Assembly (NCBI GenBank): GCA_950295325.1
Contig: OX485808.1
Location: 23,644,527-23,708,526 of the forward strand
Direction of reading: 5' to 3'
From: Polytrichum commune
Taxonomy: Eukaryota; Streptophyta; Polytrichopsida; Polytrichales; Polytrichaceae
Length of the DNA stretch: 64,000 bases
In this document: positions 29,760 to 51,921 of the stretch, in pieces
Numbering within the stretch: position 1 is the stretch's first letter
How the letters are laid out: every line of letters starts with the position of its first letter
Made by a program: the position numbers and the translations under genes
The notes under the pieces: generated by a model
What the model was told of the DNA's origin: nothing
Databases searched by the model: none
Seen by the model: only the letters and a program-made list of their open reading frames with translations

Positions 29760-30672
29760 ATTCGGTCACTTTTCTTAATTGAACCCCTATATTTGATCGG
29801 TGTGCTATGTATCCAATTAAGAAAATAATAAACACGCATTTCTATTAACCATACCTAAATTTGGGGAGGTTCGGTTTTCAATCCGGTTTTTGCAAATGTT
29901 TCATCGTAGATTTGCTAATGCAAGACGAGTTTTGTTGTGTGAGGTATATTGGGTGTTATGTGGTTCCATTTTCATGCTCTCCAACTTTTAATGATTAGAA
30001 TTTAAGGTAGATGGGTCTTAAGTGGCTACTCTCCTTAATCGGACCCCTAGACTTGATTGGTATGTGGTTCCGCAAGGATCAAAGAGCAAACATCACAGAG
30101 ACATATGTTCAAAAGAGATTGGATTGCGCCTTCATATATTAATAACTACTCTACAATCAATGATGAACACAATTGGGAGGACCTATGTATCTAGTTAAGA
30201 AATCAACAAACATGCACTTCTGATATCCGTAGCTGAAATCGGGGGATGCCAATTTTTGCAGATGTTTCATCGTAGACTTGCTAATGAAACACGAGTTTTG
30301 TTGTGTGAGGTATGTGGGTGTTATGTGGTTCCTTTTTCAAGCTCTCCAACTTCTACCGGTTAGAATTTAAGGTAGATGAGACTTTAAGTGGCTTGTTCTC
30401 TTAATCAAACCCCTAGATTTGATTGGTATGTGGTTCCGTGAGGATCAAAGAACAAACATCATAGAAACACATGTTCAAAAGGGATCAAACTACATCTTTC
30501 AACTAATAATAATTACTCTACACTCAATAGTAAACAGAGTTGGGAGGACCTATATATCCAGGTAAGAAATCAATAAACATGCACTTCTGATAACCATAAC
30601 CAAAATCAGGGATGTTGATTTTTGTAGATGTTTCATCATAGATTTGCTAATGTGACACGAGATTTGTTGTGT
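29760..30672. repeat. Tandem array of the ~360-bp dispersed repeat
   Basis: Full units start at AAGGTAGATGGGTCTTAAGT (30003) and AAGGTAGATGAGACTTTAAG (30368), spaced about 365 bp. A partial unit with an internal deletion precedes them from about 29760. Each contains CATGCACTTCTGATA and TGTTTCATCRTAGAYTTGCTAAT. The array ends where the inverted-repeat element at 30687 begins. Confidence 0.75.
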
Positions 30673-30686
30673 AGACCTTTAGACTC

Positions 30687-30930
30687 ATATGGTAGCCACA
30701 CTGGGCCCAGCTAGCCCGACCGGTGTGGGGGGGGGGGGGGGCGGTTTTGGTGCCGTCCATCCAGGGCACAAAGGACAACGTCCAAGAGTGCCCCCGCTGG
30801 CTAGATGCAAAGCTCCCAGCCAACCAACCAGGGCACTCTTGGACGTTGTCCTTAGTGCCCTGAATGGGCAACACCAACACTGGAGACCTGCATCGGCCGG
30901 GTTGGCTAGGCCCAAGTGTGGCTACCATAT
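30687..30930. mobile_element. Foldback/MITE-like inverted-repeat element
   Basis: Begins ATATGGTAGCCACAC and ends with its reverse complement GTGTGGCTACCATAT. The arms stay complementary through most of the 244 bp, including GGACAACGTCCAAGAGTGCC at about 30772 and its complement at about 30835. A long G run interrupts the left arm near 30727-30741. No convincing target duplication is visible, so the superfamily is not assigned. It abuts the minisatellite. Confidence 0.8.
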
Positions 30931-30932
30931 CA

Positions 30933-31025
30933 TCAGTAGAAGTTGGGGAACATGCAAACAAGAACCCCATACCTTATTAGTGTGGCATAGTAGAAGCTGG
31001 GGAACACACAAAAAGGAACCACATA
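30933..31025. repeat. Left part of the 54-bp minisatellite split by the CACTA element
   Basis: Nearly two units of AGTAGAAGTTGGGGAACATG / AAGGAACCACATACCTTATT type precede the CACTA left end. The last unit stops at ATA and resumes with ATACCTCATTAGCG at 40928, proving that insertion split one unit. Confidence 0.9.
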
Positions 31026-32021
31026 CACTACAAAAAATCGGGCGCACCAATGACTGCAATAAATGACTCACACAAAGTCATTCAAGAAAAAAATGACTGC
31101 ATGGTGACTAGGGTCCCTGGAGTCATTGTGGACAAGTTTTAGATCATGACTTCAATTGTACTATCACCATCCATTTCAACGGTGGATGAATTGAAAAATG
31201 TCAGGGGTCTGTAGGGCAGCAAAGTCTGTACGGCAGGAAATTTTTGGGAAGATTTCGGGCAGGGTCCCATATTCCACTCTACCCGGACGACGTGGCATGC
31301 CAGCTCGGGCTAGTGCGATGTCACTCTTCAGTGAAAATTCAGTGCGGTTTAGGGTGACGTGGACTGCCCAGTCACCTTCAGAGTCAGTCACAGAGAAGTC
31401 ATTTGCTAGTTTCGCATTTAATAGGTTTTGGGATACGTGGCATTTGCGGAAAATGATTTTGAAGTCGGCAGATAGTCATTTATATGGCACTAATTATCAC
31501 TTCGTCAAGTGGAAAATGTGACGATTTAGTCACAAGTGCGTCACGTTTGTGTGGTGTATGAGAAGGGTCCCTTTAGCTGAAGAGTCACAACGACGTCATA
31601 AACAATTGCGTCTTACAGTGGGTACGGTGACAAACAACAACATGGCCTTCTCTGGCAATAACATAATTAGGACCGCAAGGATTCAATACACTTCTGGACA
31701 TGGGCAAATGCATTCACGGGAACAGCGTTAGCTGCATGGGTAATTTACGAATATTTGTACATCAACGTACTCCTGCACCAATCCCGAAACACGGCAAGGA
31801 AATACAACATTCTGATAATCCATTCATGCCTGACATTGCAACTTCAATAGAGGTAAAAAAGGTTGAGTCAGGAGTTTAGGGTAGTTGTCCATGAAATGCC
31901 ACCGTGAATGTTGAACTCAATTTCAGCGCTTCAAGTTACAAATTACTGTTTCTCATAGAAGAGTCATCTTAAGAGATGCAGCGCACTAACCCTATGAAAC
32001 AAATCACTCCGATGTTACCAC

Positions 32022-35000
32022 TCAACCAACTGCCTTAAGGTACTTCTGGTCCCATAGAGTAGCTGTCCCTTTCACATCCTCAATCTTGTCCTGCTCATCG
32101 TCACGACTGGGAAACATGAGCTTGACCCCTGGAATCAAAATTTCATGTACATCTATCTTGAACCAATTTACAGGGATGTCCTGGAAGTGAAACTTGTGTT
32201 TCCCTGGAATCCCACTAATCTTCCCAATTGCAGCTTTGTGGCGGATGGCGCGCGGGTTCATGAGGAAGACTTCATCGCCAATCCCATACTGTACAAAACG
32301 ACACCAATTAGGTGATGATGGTTTAGGGGGTTCAAGCACGGAAATAACATTGATCACGGGTTGAACAAGATGGTACCTGCTTCGAGGAGGGGACAGAAGT
32401 TTTCTTCTCTGCGGCGGAAGCCGCCTTTGGTTTCGGTTCTTTCTTCAGTGCCTTCACCTGCACACGCATAAGATTCCATTACATACGATAATCAAAGGAA
32501 GGTGAGGGCGCAAGTCTGTAACGACGTGAGTGGGACGGGGAGATTACCTGTTGCTCCGATTTCGGTGGTCTCCTACACCTCCTTTGCGATGGAGACCCCG
32601 CAGCTGGTGGTGCTTCTGCAGGCTTCTGCTGAGCTGCTTCTGCAGGCTTCGTCTGAGCGGTCGGTGGCGACGCATGGGAGACGAGTTCCTGGACAGGGGA
32701 CACCTCGCTATTCATTTCGTCGAGCGCTGCGGGGCCACCGTCCTCAGAATTGCTGTCCTCGGATGGTCCTCCACTATCAGGCGTTTTGGGCGTCTTAACA
32801 AGACCTTCGACGGCTACAACCTCCACGTTCTCCTCAGTTTGCGAAGGGGGCAAGTCTGTAACGTCCGTTGTAGACAAAGTAATGTCGAGCTCAGTCGTGG
32901 ATGTTGGTGGAGCATGGGAGGGCTGTTGTGTTTCGGGCACCTCCATGGTTGGGTCCGCCACATCCACTTCACTGGGCCCCTGCCCAATCCGTTCTTCGAC
33001 CTGCATTGCTACATTTGGGACCTCTCTTGACGGTACCAGGTCAGACACAACCCACGCTCCGGCTTCTGCCAATGAATCCACGTCAGGGTCAGTCACAAAG
33101 GGGAGGTCGTCATTGGAATTTGATATATCCACTCTCGCAATCTTCCGTGTAGTTCGACCACCTTCCTTCTTCCCAGTTGTGCTCACGGGAGATTGCTGCT
33201 TCTCCTTTCCTACTCCCGTCCTTGGTTTACAGGCTTTTTGTTGTTGGCTCTCCAATGCAGATTCTGTCATAGAGGGGCTGCCTTCGTCCAAGATCTTCTC
33301 CTTCCCTACAATGGTCGCGAACATGGATCGCAATTCCTCCATTGCCACGGCATGGGCTTTGGAATGTGATAGGAATGTGTCAAACTTGACTTCCACCTCC
33401 TTCTTCCAAGACTCCAGGGACTCCAATCGAGCTGACTCACCTTCCCCCCTAATCTGATCACACGAAAGAGCAGAAGATAAATGCCGAAGTCATGTGAGAG
33501 GTAGGACGAAGTCACCACATATGACTCTGTTATAACTGGCACGTACGCCCAACTTGTTAGTCACCCCTGCGCAACTAAACAGCAACTACCTAGTCACTGA
33601 ATTTCAACTTCACCAAAATGGGTCAAATTCATATGACCAATGTCACTCTTACATTTTTTTGGCCGCCGCGCGAGGAACTTGCCACCCTCGTTTCGGCCAC
33701 ATCTGTGATTCCCGGGCTAGTTTCACGCCCCTCCCTCTGCCAACATGCAAGCACGAAACACTTAGCACAAATTATCTGCATGCAATACTAAATTACAGCG
33801 ATCCCCTAGCGGATGGAGTGGACTCTCACCAGTCGTGCTTCCCGAGCAGCCCTGCCTCTCCTCCCTACAAGTCCATCACTGCGAACGCTTCGTCGAGCGA
33901 TGGTCATCTTCTGCGCTTTAATTTTCTGCGCATCTGTGCTCCAGTACGCCTTCAGGTTGGCCCACTCTGCATCGCTGACGTGAAGAGGAGGCGCGGTGTC
34001 TTTGTCTTTGAGCCACCAAATTTTCAGTCGAGCCCTCTCTGCCTTCAAGTACTTCATCACAGACTGTCGGAAGCCGTGAATGCTCAAGGGATTTCCTAAG
34101 TACTCAAACTCATTGTCTAGAGCAGCTCTAAGTCTTTTCAGCGTGTGATCCTCGTGCTTGGACCACGAAACAACTGACATGTCCAAGCATTTCGGCACCA
34201 ATTCCCGCAGGGCTTCATCCCATGCGTTCTTCCCCTCGCATGTCACATCCACTTCTCCGCCTGGTAGAACGAAGACTCGATTTGGTTTCCTCCCGGCTGT
34301 AGCCCGTTGTCGACTCTCCAAATCATACTCTGCTTTCCTCTTTCGCCTGCATGAGCGGTCCACACTGTCTGGGGCTAGGTCAACAGCAACTTGGCCAGAC
34401 CAAGGAGCTCCATACGATGGTGGCGGCCCTGCAGGCCAAGGGTTTGTGCCGGTCGCCTGGCTAGGAACGTAGTGGCCTGGGACCCAAGACCAGTTGGGTT
34501 GGCCGTAAGATTCCGATGCAGTTTGCAGAGCAGGAGGCCGCGGTGGTATCTTCTGTGGGGGTAGAACGGGCGTTGGGATCTTCTTCCTTGGTGCCCGACG
34601 AATCAACAGGGGTTCTTCATCGGAGAGGTCGATTTCCTCTTCGGATGAATCCACGAGCCTAAGCTCCGATGCTGCAGCAACAATGTTGGACACATGATGT
34701 GTCAGCACTGTATTGCGGTGCACTGACTATGGTTTAGGGATCAGCCAAGCAAAGCGCAGAACTTTCTTCGCAAAAAACAAATGAATCGCCCAACCCAAGC
34801 ACTAAACCCTAAACCCAAGAGTTGAGGAGCGGAATGTTTTTTTACCTGCTGCTCTATCGAATCTCTTGGATTGCCGGTCAACATGGGTACAAGCAATGGC
34901 GAGGTGCATCATACCTGTGGCAATGTCCTCGTCATTGGTATTCGTCGCCTCCGACGAAGTTGTGCGCAAGCTCGACATTTTCACCGTCTCCTCACCCCGC

Positions 35001-35703
35001 TTTCCAATCTGATCTCTCCCGGGAGCCTTTATTGCCTCTTGCCCTCCAAGATAGAGCCGCCTTCCACTTCGACGGACAGGTATAGCTTCGTTACTGGTGG
35101 GCTTCTCCACAAATCGGACCTGCTTGGGCTTCGCTTTCGAAGCCTCCCTGCGCCACCCCCAACTACCTAAAACATCTGGCCTCCCACACGCAAGACTCAA
35201 ACACGCAAGACTCATACACGCCAAGCACAAGGAGAGCCGTGAGTGCTAAACTAACTCAAACTATACAGAAGACTATGGCACGCACAGCCAACTGACCAAA
35301 GGGAGAAGAAGAGAAACACTGGCTAGGGTTTGTCGAGACTCTCACGTGGCTACAATGCTCAAGGCTGGGATCCTGATTGGTCCTCCACTTCCCTCTGACT
35401 AGGACCCAACTTCTGAGACACTAGGACGTCACTCATTTGTAGTCACGTTCTAGTTAGGAGTCATTGAATGTGACTTCCCTGTATCCTAATGCCAACTCAA
35501 ACTATCCCAAGGGAGAAAAAGACTCACAGACGCCCATAACCTCCACTCAACCCTAGAAATGCGCCGCCATGAAATGGCTGGAGTACTCACCACTCCTGTA
35601 GAGCTGCCACAACCGGTGCCATTCTCTTCTGCACCTCGGCCACTCTACGGTCGCGAGCAAGCTCGTAAGCACCTTTTTCTGGGGGCGTGCTGTCCATCTC
35701 CAT
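32022..35703 (-). CDS. CACTA accessory protein, TNPA/TNP1-like (Transposase_24 type), six exons
   Basis: Likely binds the subterminal motifs of the element and assists the transposase. In transcription order the exons are 35703-35591, 35162-34846, 34671-33830, 33453-32548, 32457-32377 and 32288-32022. All junctions are GT-AG and the phases match, giving 2526 nt (841 residues). Exon 1 has the YELARDRRVAEVQKRM motif common at the start of such proteins. Exon 3 has an acidic patch (SSEEEIDLSDEE), a basic RRKRK cluster, and a Transposase_24-like helical region (GFRQSVMKYLKAERARLKIW, WANLKAYWSTDAQKIKAQK). Exon 4 begins with a likely coiled coil and continues low-complexity acidic and Ser/Pro-rich. 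Exon 6 resembles the C-terminal TNP1/EN-SPM domain (YGIGDEVFLMNPRAIRHKAA to TLWDQKYL). The family call is from motif memory; the exon structure is well supported. Plus-strand frames across this region are shadows. Confidence 0.82.
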
Positions 35704-36440
35704 GAGCTGCGGTAAGTGCCACCTCGTTGGTCTCCTTGGGAATTCAGGGCTTTGTAGAACTCTATTGCTTACATGAAACTTGGGGATCGTGAAAGTCGCC
35801 GTGTACAAGCAAAACACACAAAAAAACAAAGGCAAAACGAGAATTGCACCAAGTCCGCAGCCTCTCTCTCTCTTTCACGGAGAGACAGAAGCGAAAAGAA
35901 TTTTCCTCCGTAATGTGACTGAACAGAAATCATGAGCTAATGTTAAGTGCTTGATGTTTGAATAGGTAGTGCTTCTGCTGGCGGCTCCCAATTATTCACC
36001 ATGTAGCGAGGAGGTCGGCCGTTTCTGAAGTGATCTTGCATTTAGTGCGTCCCCTAATCCCTAGTTGGTACCCCTTTAGCTTAGGGGTACCCTGAACGGT
36101 AATCCTTGAACGCTCATTGAATTTTTGTAGTCACTTTGGAGTCCTAGTTGTCTAAAACGACTTCCGGTAGTCATACTGAAGTCACTGTCACCCAAATTTT
36201 AGTCAGTCATAAGTCAGTCATAAGTCAGTTAGAAGTCATTGAAGAGGCATTTGTTAGTCATTCTCTAGTGTCACTAACCTAACTAACCCCAAAAGTAGAG
36301 GTTAGTGACGTTGGTGGCAATTGATAAAGTACCTTGTGTCATATTCGAACACTGTGCATAATGTGTTGGAGCAGAGCAGTCTTTTCTCCGTGGCTAAGAA
36401 ATCTTTCTGCAGGTTTGTAATTGTCGCCCTGAGTAAAGAG
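35704..36440. promoter_or_regulatory. Divergent promoter region of the CACTA element
   Basis: The gap between the two divergent start codons contains many AGTCA/TGACT motifs, including a run of AGTCAGTCATAAGTCAGTC type at about 36195-36245. The same motif clusters at the element termini, which suggests that the element's own DNA-binding protein may regulate its genes here. No TATA box is assigned with confidence. Confidence 0.5.
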
Positions 36441-39400
36441 ATGATACCCAGCAGACTACCGTTGTCTGACAGTAGAAGGCAGCGATTACGAGATGACAGA
36501 TTGTGGGTTAGGGAGTTGAAGCGAGCCAGGGAGTGCAATGTTCAGAAATTGCATTGCCCTTGCATAAATTGTAGGGGGCGTAAGAGACTCTTCATACGGA
36601 ACGTGCGGGAGCATCTCATCCAAAACGGTCGACATCCTGAATCACGGATTTGGAGAGGACCCGGCGCAAGAGATTCTTCGGACGAAGAGTGGGAACATCA
36701 ATTCTGGGGACCCATTGAAGCAGAGCGTGATGGAGGACACGATGTTGGTGATACAAGTGTTCCGATTGCGCAAGAAACAAATGTGTTGGATGCCACCGTG
36801 GACACCCGTGGCATGGTCGACCATGCACAACCAACAGTGGACGTTCAGACATATTCAGCGGAGAGGCTTGGCGAGGAAGTCAGGGAAGCCTTTGGAATTG
36901 CTGATTCTGTTCATGAAGAATTCATGGAAGCGGAGTTCGGTGACCAAGTAGAGGAAGAGGAGTGTCGTGACGAGGAACCCCTCGCTGATGCTGATGTTGA
37001 CCAGGGAGACGGTGACCCCCACCTTGACGATAGGGCCCTACAGGATTCACTGGAGCATTTATATGATGGGTCTCGTTGCAGCAAGCTTGCGGCTACAGTG
37101 TTGTTGATGAATTTGTGCACTGTGCACGGCGTGAGCAATCAGTGCGCGAACGAGCTCTTTAGCATTTTGCATTTGCATGTGTTGCCAGAGAAGAATACAT
37201 TGCCGCGAACACATCATGCAGCAAAGACCCTTACCGCAAAGTTGGGTTTGACATACAACACCATCCATGCATGTGAGCACGGGTGTGTGCTATTCCGGGG
37301 ACCCCATGAGGATGCACTTCGTTGTCCTAAATGTGGAGGCCGTAGATACCGAGATGAGGATCGGCGTTGTTACCCTTTGAAGGTGCTTCGTCACTTTCCA
37401 ATCATTCCACGGTTGCAGCGCATGTACATGAGTCCGAGCATATCAAAGCTGATGGTATGGCATGCAGAGAACCGGAGCAACAAAGACGGAGGAGATGGCT
37501 TGGTTAGACACCCCTGCGACGCCAAGGCATGGCGGCACTTTGAGGAAAATGTCGACCCGAGTTTTGCACTTGATCCACGAAACGTCCATTTCGCTTTGGC
37601 AGCCGACGGAGTGAACCCTTACAAGCAGAATCGATCCACATGGTCAACGTGGCCCGTTCTACTGCTGAATTACAACTTGCCTCCATGGCTGAGCACCAAA
37701 AATTTCTTTATGGTGTTGGCACTTTTGATTCCAGGAAAGGAATCTGTGACGTCCGATGTATTTGACGTGTACTTAGAGCCTCTTGTGGATGAATTGAAGG
37801 AGTTATGGGCTGGAGTGCCTGCTTACGACGTATCAAAAGATGCGGGCTCCAAGACTTTCCAATTGCGTGCCATGTTGCTATGGACAATCCATGACTTCCC
37901 AGGCTACGGCACTGTTGGCGGTTTTGCTCATCAGGGCTACGCAGCATGTCCTTGCTGTGGAGAGGACTTAGGCGCAGAGCATTCAACCGAACTTGGGAAG
38001 CAAACTTACGGTGGTACCCGACGTTGGTTGCCTGAAGATCACCCGTACAGGTCACCTGAATTGAAGGACCACTTCAACGGACAGATTGAACATCGACCAA
38101 AACCAAGGGCCGTGACAGTGGAAGACCAAATTCGTCATGCCCTGGAGTGCGAGGCTTGGAAGGCCGACGGAAATAGGTGGGGTGCTGCTGGCGATCCTTC
38201 CAAAATACATGGTGTGAAACGTCTCAGCATTCTCTTCCGCTTGCCGTATTGGAAGGTCAGTGACTTCATCCCCATTGATATCTACTATAATGACTTACAA
38301 ATGACTTTCCATGAACTACATGGGTACTATAGAAAATGCTTCGTGAGTCACTGCGTAGTCATAGAGTCGTTGTAGTGAAGTTGAGTTACTCTCAGGCGCC
38401 GAGTATATGACTTACCAGACGAGTCACACATGAGTTATGACGTACATGACGTGCCTTTTCACTGTCTGTAATGTTTAGAGTCTTCTCATTCGGAACACAC
38501 TGGACGTCATGCACTGCGAGCTGAACCTAGCCAAGAACTTCTTGAAGACCATCGCAGGGAAGAAGGACACCGTGAAAGTCAGAAGAGACTTACAAAGGAG
38601 GAACATTAGACCACACCTATGGCTAACTCCAAACCCACGAAAGGCAGGGAAGATGGTGAAACCACGCGCATCTTACGTCTTGTCCGATGCAGAATTTGAG
38701 AAGTTTGTGAAGTGCATTGAGACCTTAAAGACGCCTAGTGGTTACTCTTCTGACCTTGGCAAATGTCTCCGCAAGAAGAACTTTGGGGGGTTAAAGTCCC
38801 ACGATTACCACATTCTGATGCAGCAAGTGATGCCACTATCTCTGCGTGGACTGATGGAACCCGGACCTCGCACAGCTATCATGAGAATGTGTCGGGTATT
38901 TCGCCGGTTGTGCACGAAAGTGTACAATCCCGCAGATTTTCCCTCACTTGAAGCGGATGTGGCAGAGAGCATGGCGTTATTGGAGATACAATTTCCACCC
39001 TCGTTTTTTGACATCATGACGCACCTCCCATATCACTTGGCAAAGGAGTTGGACTTGTGTGGTCCAGTTAGCGCCCGCTGGATGTATCCGGTGGAACGAT
39101 TTATGAAAGTGTTGAAGAACCATGTCAGGAACATGGCGCGTCCAGAGGCTTGCATGGCGGAGGGCTACTTGAAAGATGAATGCATAGGCTTCATTACCGA
39201 GTACCTCCACCGATTTGAAGGAACTCAAAGACGTGTATGGGATGAAGATGAAGAATATGGAGATGCTGAAGAGGTCCTGCAAGGGGCAGGGAAACCGTAC
39301 ATTATGAGTCCAGAGATGGGAGCTGTAGCCCACCAGTATGTGCTATCAAATGCCTCGGCTATGCAGGATTTGTACAGGTAACCTGGAACTGACCATTTTA

Positions 39401-40263
39401 TGTGTTGCACGTGCTTGAAGTGAAGTTGGAAGCAGTGTTGTGCAAGTACTCTTTGGGGATGCCATGCTTATTGAACCATTCTGTGACCCAATTTCGATCA
39501 TATCCCGGGACACTCATTCCCTTGTTTTTGCAGAGCGTGGAGTCGAGAAGCAGATGAGAATCAGGGAACACCTGATCTAGCAGACTGGATTGAACGCACA
39601 GTGCAGGCATGCAATTTAGATTTGCGGAAGCCGGAGGACATGGACCGGTTTCTACTAAGTAAGAGGCCATCACACCGAGCGACTAGGTATGCCAGAGTAC
39701 TGGCGTTTGGTAACCGCTTTCGAGTGGACGATGACAGCACCGGACACTTGCTCAGCTACAACTCCGGGGTGGCGTCAGTGTTTCAGGAGGTGTCCGAGAA
39801 TTCCCAAGAATCTTCTGTGAACTACGTGGGAGTATTGAAGGACATACTAGAGTTGGATTATGGTGCACTGACTATGAAGATTATTCTTATGCGATGTGAG
39901 TGGATTAAAACCCAAGACAATCGAGGCAACCCCACGTACATCCGCGACGATGCAGGATTCCTTACAGTGAACTTCCGCCACAAACTCCCTCGCCTGGCAG
40001 ACCCTTTCATCTTTCCGAGCCAAGCGACACAAGTCTTCTTCTCAGATGTTTGTGAAAGACCTGGGTGGAAAGTTGTTTTACGGAAAGAGGCACGAGCCAG
40101 ACGGGAAGTGGTGGAGGTTGCAGACGCATTTATTTGCACATCAACGGAGAGTACCGGTTTAAGAGCTCCAGACAGATTGCCCGTTCCTGCAAGTACGGTA
40201 AATCTAGTTGGTGCCATCGAATTGTCTGAGGAAGACAATTTGCTAGCAAATGCAGGGTATTAG
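36441..40263 (+). CDS. CACTA transposase, TNP2 family, three exons
   Basis: Catalyses excision and reinsertion of the element. Exons 36441-38255, 38479-39377 and 39534-40263 join in frame into 3444 nt (1147 residues). The N-terminus carries a transposase-associated cysteine cluster (CPCINC). The TNP2 core follows, with candidate DDE residues Asp389 (FALAADGVNPY), Asp485 (HDFPGYG) and Glu619 (LDVMHCELNL), the last restored only by splicing. Exon 2 continues as a DUF4218-like region (PYHLAKELDLCGPV, ARWMYPVERFMKVLKNHVRN). Exon 3 holds a DUF4216-like region (YVGVLKDILELDYG, DPFIFPSQATQVFFSDV). The ATG at 36441 was chosen because it opens the conserved N-terminus; the frame extends upstream to 36321 without an ATG. 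No stop or frameshift is seen. Confidence 0.95.
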
Positions 40264-40927
40264 GTATGAATGCAATTTACTAGCTACGACACGTGAATTC
40301 AAGTTGATGCCAAATTATGTTAAGGATTTAGGGTTTTCATGTAGATTCAATTTAGATGTAGGGTCAAGTATTTGTGGCGTGTACATTCTTTTGTGCACTG
40401 TGATCCAATTTTTGTGCAATTATTGAACATATTCAGCGACGAATATATCCTCACTTAGCCCTATGAGCTATATGCGAGTACTAATTGACTCGACTACTGT
40501 TGATTCTAGACTGATAATGAGTCACCCAAAAATGACTGCAGCCACGTCAGCATAGCGAACTGCCCGTGAAACTTTTCTGAGATGACCTAATTGTCCATGT
40601 GAAACCATAAAGTCATTCTGTAGTCAGGTGACAGTGGAATACACGCGCCTTGTAACTCACTGTAGTGGACTTATATGACTGCGCGACGTACGTGAGACAT
40701 CCATCCTCTCCATCCAGCCTCATCCCAGTTCTATCAATGAAAAATTGCGGATGAACGTGGCACGTCGCATCAGGTTCATCAATAGTCATACTCCATGACT
40801 ATGTTGTGACTGGAAGACCATGGATAGATCTTGAGTCGTGCCAAACGGGAATGTGGAGTCATTCAGAAGTAACTTCGGACATGAAGTCATTTCTTGCAGT
40901 CACATTTACCCCCGATTTTTTGTAGTG

Positions 40928-41275
40928 ATACCTCATTAGCGTGGCGTAGTAGAAGTTGGGGAACATGCAAACATGAACCACATACCTTATTAGTGTGGCG
41001 TAGTAGAAGTTGGGGAACATGCAAAAAGGAACGACATACCTTATTAGTGTGGCGTAGTAGAAGTTGGGGAACATGCAAAAAGGAACGACATACCTTATTA
41101 GTGAGGCGTAGTAGAAGTTGGAGACACGCAAAAAGGAACCACATACCTTATTAGTGTGGCGTAGTAGAAGTTGGAGAACATGCAAAAAGGATCCATATGC
41201 CTTATTAGTGTGGCGTAGTAGAAGTTGGGGAACATGCAAAAAGGATCCACATACTTATCATTGGTGTGGCGTAGG
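40928..41275. repeat. Right part of the 54-bp minisatellite, about six units
   Basis: Units recur at a spacing of 52-54 bp (CATACC starts at about 40981, 41035, 41089 and 41142), each containing TTATTAGTGTGGCGTAGTAG and AACATGCAAAAAGGA. The array ends 0.4 kb before the NEET start codon. Repetitive frames with HVPQLLLRHTNK-like repeats on the minus strand derive from it and are not genes. Confidence 0.92.
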
Positions 41276-51029: not shown

Positions 51030-51921
51030 AAGAATACAAATCTAGAATTGATCCCCATACTATATTCCAACATAGATAAATGGATAGCTGATGAGAAAAT
51101 AAATAACGAGATGTCAAATAAATTATGGACAAACAAAAACATAACTGACACTCAAAAAACATGTCTTCTAAAATTGAGACATGGTCAATATATGGGGCAC
51201 GCTAGGAAACAACTGTTCTTTGGCAGGGAACCCTTCCCATTGATCACATGTCCCATATGTAAGTCTCTAGACCCTGGTACATGGCTACATGTACTTCTAA
51301 AGTGCAAACAACGCCACATACATGCCTTCCGAACCAAAAGTCATAATAAAGCAGTATGGGAATTAAGAAAACTTATAGTGGCATCAAAAAAGACAAGATG
51401 CTATGTTCTCATGAATGTAGGCACATTCAATAATGACCCTACAGAAAACACCGTCCCCCCATGGCTATTACCTTGCATGTGTGGCCAACAAAGATGTCAC
51501 TGCAATGCCAAATTTAGACTAGACATTTTATGTGTGAAAGGACTACCATATCAATCTCCACCACCAACAGAACCTATTGACAACTTAATAATACAATTTT
51601 TTGAAATTACATATTGTAATGATAGAATACTAGATGAAACTTTAATTATAAAATATAAAATATAAACCACTAATAGACAATATTACCAATAGAGGATGGA
51701 AGATAGATCCACTAATAGTCATCACTGCAAGTGCTAGGGTGGCCACACACACCCCTTCCATGAAAAGTATTGAAACAACATTTAAAATCCCTAAGCTAAA
51801 TATCAAATACACATTTGAGGAAATCAACATTATCGCCATACAATATGTCATGTTCATAATTCTACACAAAAGGAGGATAGAAAACAACGAACCACTACCA
51901 ATTGACACACAACTACCATAG
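51030..51921 (+). pseudogene. LINE C-terminal fragment resembling an R2/NeSL-type CCHC plus restriction-like endonuclease
   Basis: An open frame (51048-51665, 205 codons) contains CPICKSLDPGTWLHVLLKC, a C-x2-C-x9-H-x4-C cluster, followed by SHNKAVWELRKLI, the position of the RHN motif in restriction-like-endonuclease LINEs. Downstream, CNAKFRLDILCVKGLP and IIQFFEITYCND resemble the PD..(D/E)xT core, with Pro of PD changed to Leu. A one-base shift near 51655-51662 moves the reading to YKPLIDNITNRGWKIDPLIV and TASARVATH, ending at 51921. The clade call is from motif memory and is uncertain; that it is a LINE-type tail is more secure. No reverse-transcriptase domain adjoins it directly. Confidence 0.6.

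Follow-up and report, generated by a model that had tools for sequence, protein, structure and literature searches.

A two-gene, probably autonomous CACTA transposon of a low-copy family in Polytrichum commune

In maize En/Spm, CACTA ends and a conserved tnp2-type transposase (TNPD) are combined with a poorly conserved second protein (TNPA) that binds repeated end motifs, and the same account describes the subterminal motifs of plant CACTA elements as widely divergent (PMC2613891). The accounts drawn on here (PMC2613891, PMC8195511) assign to the superfamily a transposase that works on the CACTA termini, together with a TNPA-like protein that binds repeated end sites. Here we describe a CACTA element in a stretch of 64,000 nucleotides from Polytrichum commune (assembly GCA_950295325.1, contig OX485808.1, positions 23,644,527 to 23,708,526; hereafter the window), in which it occupies 9,902 bp (31026-40927). 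An earlier note on this DNA had read it as a structurally complete, probably active CACTA transposon. We consider it very likely that this is a cut-and-paste transposon of the CACTA (En/Spm) superfamily, complete, two-gene and probably autonomous, and that it belongs to a low-copy family which moved within this plant very recently. To our knowledge, few CACTA elements have been described from non-seed plants.

The element is a member of a new low-copy family within the known CACTA superfamily. Its perfect 17-bp inverted ends begin with CACTA, and the 43-bp arm from 31026 to 31068 is 84% complementary to 40885-40927; a 3-bp target-site duplication flanks all five copies with exact ends; the transposase is of the tnp2 type (Transposase_21, E 1.4e-66) and carries the accessory domains DUF4218 (E 8.2e-35) and DUF4216 (E 2.8e-12), both above their Pfam cut-offs; and D389, D485 and E619, identified by order and conservation, make up a candidate DDE triad. 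As expected of an autonomous element, its genes are intact and its family has made new insertions recently.

Copies, insertion sites and age

The whole 407.8-Mb assembly (64 contigs, seven of them chromosome-sized at 42-78 Mb) was searched for relatives. The exact 17-mer end occurs ten times, as five inverted pairs that delimit five elements, whereas the reversed control pattern has no exact occurrence in the same assembly; the ends are therefore not a chance match, and the perfect termini and identical ATA duplication reported in the earlier note stand. Allowing one mismatch adds six occurrences, of which two are the left ends of the older copies C3a and C6b and the other four lie elsewhere, against one for the reversed control. 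Because the exact end is confined to four near-identical copies and a fifth, C2, there are no deletion derivatives with intact exact ends. The left 600 bp of the element has seven genome matches, and the right 600 bp matches eight places. Three ends reading CACTACAAAACATCGGG, one mismatch from the element's end, lie inside about 96 kb at C5:52080168-52176449 and possibly mark a small related family.

The earlier note had proposed a search for near-identical copies, whose absence would have counted against recent activity; three other full-length copies were found, each with a different duplication. Over 9,902 bp, C4b (C4:30491582-30501483) differs from the window copy by a single base (39409, in transposase intron 2), and C4a (C4:30667452-30677338) by the same base and a 15-bp intronic slip, the window copy alone carrying the variant at 39409. 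C7 (C7:17537383-17547260) differs by 14 substitutions and a 24-bp in-frame repeat unit; its transposase has two different amino acids, and its second protein has two more and an 8-residue deletion. The short tandem units at window 35186-35221 (15 bp) and 32611-32658 (24 bp) vary in copy number between the near-identical copies, probably by slippage. The fifth exact-end copy, C2 (C2:171849-189667), aligns in three pieces at 96-98% identity and contains two nested insertions; the individual pieces of the older C3a and C6b are 84-93% identical to the element, and C3b, within the fetched stretch, is a fragment of the right end.

The insertions in C2 (950 bp and 6,946 bp) are bounded by ends like those of long terminal repeat (LTR) retrotransposons (TGTCGCGCACC...GGTTGCGACA, an LTR label given by eye), and the same ends, reversed, bound a 7,051-bp insertion in C6b; one LTR-like family seems to have struck these CACTA copies three times. 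C6b also contains what is probably a further DNA transposon, an insertion of 8,547 bp whose inverted ends read GGGTAGAAGCACGCTAA.

Each exact-end copy has its own 3-bp duplication (ATA in the window, GTT for C4a, TAC for C4b, TGA for C7 and AGG for C2), so the five insertions are independent. Among the older copies having both ends, C6b retains ACT/ACT and C3a has no duplication (att/aaa). Furthermore, no similarity between the flanks of different copies was found at E 1e-5 over 1 kb on each side (just 181 bp to the right of C2). The empty-site check proposed in the note also gave a positive answer: unoccupied paralogous sites, without the element and without one copy of the duplication, were identified for all four insertions searched (window, C4a, C4b and C7). 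The window copy sits in a 54-bp tandem array whose uninterrupted units have the sequence ...CATACCTTATTAG...; in the unit broken by the insertion this becomes ...CACATA-[element]-ATACCTCATTAG..., and its neighbouring units thus represent the unoccupied site with a single ATA. For C4b the empty site lies 199 bp away, in a tandem copy (98.2% identical) of 169 bp that cross the junction with no net gap, and for C4a and C7 it is a dispersed repeat, at best 99% identical over all 240 bp of joined flank and 93% over 236 of 240 bp, respectively. Recent transposition is thus well supported by three more near-identical full-length copies with different duplications and by four unoccupied sites.

To place these insertions in time, we used T = K/2r with r = 9e-9, a rate applied to Physcomitrium (PMC7466625) that may not be that of Polytrichum commune. 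One difference corresponds to some 5,600 years, with 31,000 as the upper 95% bound, an order of magnitude in which the one base may itself be an assembly error, and the 14 differences of C7 to about 79,000 years (43,000-132,000), likewise an order of magnitude. When C2 and C3a are used to polarise the changes, eight belong to the C7 lineage (one by C2 alone), three to the branch leading to the other three copies and one to the window copy, and two are ambiguous. On their shared chromosome, C4a and C4b are separated by about 176 kb; the chance that any of the ten copy pairs falls within that distance is about 0.009, a pattern noticed after the fact and no more than suggestive of local hopping.

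Two divergent genes

The transposase gene lies on the plus strand and, as the note had it, comprises three exons joined by GT-AG introns into 1147 residues with no stop or frameshift. Besides the domains named above, a match to TAD (Transpos_assoc; 24.2 bits, E 3.9e-5) falls below its 27.7-bit cut-off; exon 1 as a query of solved structures returned zero matches. At the DNA level, exon 1 has at least seven close matches in the genome, at least 33 distant places (64-69% identity) and one 95-bp fragment, lower bounds obtained with 40 of 58 candidates scored. Translations from 12 of the 33 distant places agree with the candidate catalytic residues that the note had put forward: D389 is kept in all 11 homologues that reach the position, D485 in 10 of 12 (the other two have N, and one of these also has stops nearby), and E619 in every one, as are C503 and C506. 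Exon 1 ends at residue 605.

The second gene (open reading frame 2, ORF2) runs divergently on the minus strand. The six-exon, 841-residue form proposed in the note could be reproduced and is open, without a stop, when the 84-nt exon 33736-33653 is omitted; a seven-exon form of 869 residues is probably the better prediction, because exon 4 has AG and GT borders in all six aligned copies and is 97.6% identical in C3a, against 76-82% for the adjacent introns. A six-exon, 768-residue model was rejected for a non-GT donor, and seven-exon versions with other acceptors for a broken frame. A match of ORF2 to the Pfam family HGD-D (E 0.0005; 20.2 bits, below the cut-off of 28.4) was taken as chance, and the predicted structures of two ORF2 pieces (mean predicted local distance difference test scores of 50.5 and 32.2) were unusable.

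Both genes are open, with intact GT-AG borders, in all four near-identical copies, and the older copies show constraint on both, stronger for the transposase and weaker for ORF2. Identity to C3a is 93-95% for the transposase exons and 84-85% for its introns, and 86-98% for the ORF2 exons and 70-82% for its introns, all computed with slightly older exon borders. The ratio of nonsynonymous to synonymous divergence (dN/dS) is 0.22 against C3a and 0.15 against C2 for the transposase, and 0.49 against each for ORF2, within which the values are 0.30 and 0.35, respectively, for exon 3 and, against C3a, 0.36 and 0.46 for exons 6 and 7. The ORF2 exons of C3a, at about 87% identity, remain open over 869 codons with all indels in frame. 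Across the element, four of five coding indels relative to C3a are multiples of three, against seven of 31 non-coding ones.

Relatives of ORF2 also occur divergently next to transposases elsewhere in the genome. With 138 of 242 candidates scored, at least 134 protein matches to ORF2 exon 3 were obtained, and the best 69 of these were compared with 40 transposase places (41 less the fragment). A divergent upstream ORF2 match lies within 25 kb at all seven family members and at 22 of the 33 distant places (4.7-23 kb for the latter); 10 transposase places lack an ORF2 neighbour among those best 69 matches, and at the one remaining place the nearest match, convergently oriented, belongs to the C2 family copy and is its ORF2. 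In this lineage ORF2 and transposase genes are thus, as a rule, arranged head to head where both co-occur. At C1:43383418, C2:8897569, C6:40026819 and other places there are weak relatives of ORF2 exon 3, with about 22-33% identity and many as uninterrupted frames of 300-540 residues; they possibly belong to another element class or to host genes sharing a domain.

Table 1. Features of the element and its insertion site, in window coordinates.
Feature	Position	Strand	Remarks
Left target-site duplication	31023..31025	.	ATA; from sequence
Left terminal inverted repeat	31026..31042	+	17 bp, CACTACAAAAAATCGGG
Left subterminal region	31026..32021	.	16 AGTCA/TGACT sites
ORF2 exon 7	32022..32288	-	includes stop
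ORF2 exon 6	32377..32457	-	
ORF2 exon 5	32548..33453	-	
ORF2 exon 4	33653..33736	-	not in six-exon model; 97.6% identical in C3a
ORF2 exon 3	33830..34671	-	translation with at least 134 genome matches
ORF2 exon 2	34846..35162	-	
ORF2 exon 1 (tentative)	35591..35703	-	
Intergenic region between divergent genes	35704..36440	.	11 AGTCA/TGACT sites; candidate shared promoter (inferred)
Transposase exon 1	36441..38255	+	Transpos_assoc (under cut-off), Transposase_21, D389, D485, CxxC 503-506
Transposase exon 2	38479..39377	+	E619, DUF4218
Transposase exon 3	39534..40263	+	DUF4216; stop at 40263
Right subterminal region	40264..40927	.	12 AGTCA/TGACT sites
Right terminal inverted repeat	40911..40927	-	17 bp, exact reverse complement of left repeat
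Right target-site duplication	40928..40930	.	ATA; from sequence
54-bp tandem array, insertion target	40928..41274	.	units also left of element

Elsewhere in the window, the left flank of the element holds a 366-bp tandem repeat (29887-30672) and a 64-bp inverted repeat (81%, 30744-30880), and a 205-residue open frame on the plus strand (51048-51665) looks by eye like the end of the reverse-transcriptase frame of a LINE (long interspersed nuclear element), with zero Pfam matches. Contig C8 (146,561 bp) was taken as the plastid genome, as it carries rbcL, which is intact and by eye similar to that of non-seed plants, and a 344-residue frame that matches RNA_pol_A_CTD and was taken as rpoA. A search of the plasmid collection gave zero matches.

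A repeated motif, a proposed mechanism and rival readings

The most frequent 5-mer of the element's non-coding DNA is AGTCA/TGACT, with 56 sites in 3,848 bp where 300 dinucleotide shuffles gave 12.0 +/- 3.5 (maximum 24), and with only 7 sites in 6,054 bp of its coding DNA; the density of 14.6 per kb compares with 1.8 per kb in the remaining window. Besides the sites of both ends and the intergenic region (Table 1), transposase intron 1 holds 7 and three ORF2 introns together hold 10, and the other four introns have none. Of all 56 sites, C3a keeps 39 intact, whereas positions drawn at random from the same segments gave 25.8 +/- 3.6, with 0 of 2000 trials as high. An excess also appears in a distant CACTA family of the same genome, with 58 non-coding sites against 23.7 +/- 4.5 at C5:10443362-10456438 and 57 against 22.4 +/- 4.4 at C6:34027536-34040364, non-coding here meaning DNA without a match to the window's proteins.

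By analogy with the superfamily, the plus-strand DDE transposase would cut at the CACTA ends and join the element to staggered 3-bp cuts in the target. The divergent ORF2 protein would be a TNPA-like helper that binds the many AGTCA/TGACT sites in the ends. Because sites also lie between the genes and in introns, we propose that this protein probably controls the element's own transcription as well, and the intergenic sites would permit one protein to control both genes. More tentatively, and as a possibility rather than an expectation, the core may be a shared recognition site of ORF2 proteins across the CACTA lineage of this plant, serving transposition where it lies in the ends and self-regulation where it lies in introns and between the two genes. 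If so, a fixed core is kept across families whose ends are otherwise non-alignable, and recognition of the site by ORF2 is directly testable.

Several observations tell against this account. The transposase is broken in both older copies aligned in full, C2 and C3a, by a frameshift in each; C2 has moreover an ORF2 stop and two lost acceptors, and C3a has lost the acceptor of ORF2 exon 2. ORF2 has no accepted Pfam domain, Transposase_24 and Peptidase_C48 included, and its exon 1 is the least certain, the AG acceptor joined to it being missing in C2 and C3a; ORF2 exon 5 is under little constraint (dN/dS of 0.75 and 0.71 for C3a and C2, respectively) and changes much faster in protein sequence than exon 3, either as a loosely constrained linker or as a rapidly changing part. 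Binding of AGTCA/TGACT by ORF2 is a candidate role drawn from the position, enrichment and conservation of the sites, and the motif is a 5-6-bp core, with none of the longer subterminal units (usually 10-20 bp) found. Furthermore, the two motif-rich distant loci are 97% copies of each other, and the third of the three examined (C5:43926500-43941499), in which no element ends were recognised, has 35 sites over the whole stretch where 36.5 are expected. Finally, seven of the eight derived substitutions of C7 are C:G to T:A.

This last bias fits methylated, silenced DNA, and it is a serious possibility, close to but short of an even chance, that the family multiplied recently and at present is kept silent through DNA methylation and small RNAs, its copies being intact since the time for decay has been too short. 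Plant CACTA elements usually end up silenced, and just five exact-end copies exist here. Whatever the present state, the single base between the window copy and C4b means that at least one insertion is very young; of the recent or current activity suggested in the earlier note, the recent part is thus sustained by near-identical copies, distinct duplications and empty sites, and the current part is a possibility. That the near-identity reflects segmental duplication, gene conversion or assembly duplication instead of transposition is very hard to credit: C4a and C4b do share a chromosome at close range, but each of the five copies has its own duplication, the flanks are dissimilar even between these two, and the unoccupied sites lack both the element and one copy of the duplication.

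Reliance on another CACTA family for one protein, for example if the element's own ORF2 were non-functional, appears improbable. The genome offers at least 134 ORF2-exon and at least 41 transposase matches as potential sources, ORF2 is under the weaker constraint (dN/dS 0.49), and the distant family shares the motif core; however, both genes are open in four near-identical copies, and the C3a exons of ORF2 have stayed in frame, though with one acceptor lost. A complete, probably autonomous element that transposed very recently remains our preferred reading.

Comparison with described CACTA families

With four near-identical, open, independently inserted full-length copies, the family provides a clean reference element, as the note had anticipated, in which insertion polymorphism, excision and binding of DNA by ORF2 are simple to test. 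Within the same genome, the second CACTA family (C5:10443362-10456438 and C6:34027536-34040364) resembles it in its divergent ORF2 and transposase, its 3-bp duplications (TCT and TGA) and its excess of AGTCA/TGACT. It differs in its ends (CACTAGAAGAAT) and its length of about 13 kb, the aligned transposase pieces being 45-67% and ORF2 39-46% identical, and the ends of the C5 copy, the one compared, have no DNA similarity to those of the present element.

Among described plant elements, Buchmann et al. (2014) place the Region I introns of CACTA transposases at or close to the catalytic E (PMC4158355), and here exon 1 ends 14 residues before E619; the hosts named in that survey are monocots and eudicots, unlike ours. 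In maize Spm, tnpD and tnpA are described as arising from overlapping, alternatively spliced transcripts (PMC8195511), whereas the present element has separate divergent genes and an AGTCA core. Jozin of Chenopodium is alike in its length of 8.3-10.1 kb and in an ORF1 with Transposase_21, DUF4218 and DUF4216, along with a TAD whose counterpart here falls below its cut-off, and is reported with ends CACTAGTAGAAA and similar and with 12-bp subterminal units (PMC8978399); the present element, by contrast, ends in CACTACAAAAAATCGGG and carries a shorter motif that recurs between its genes and in four of its eight introns.

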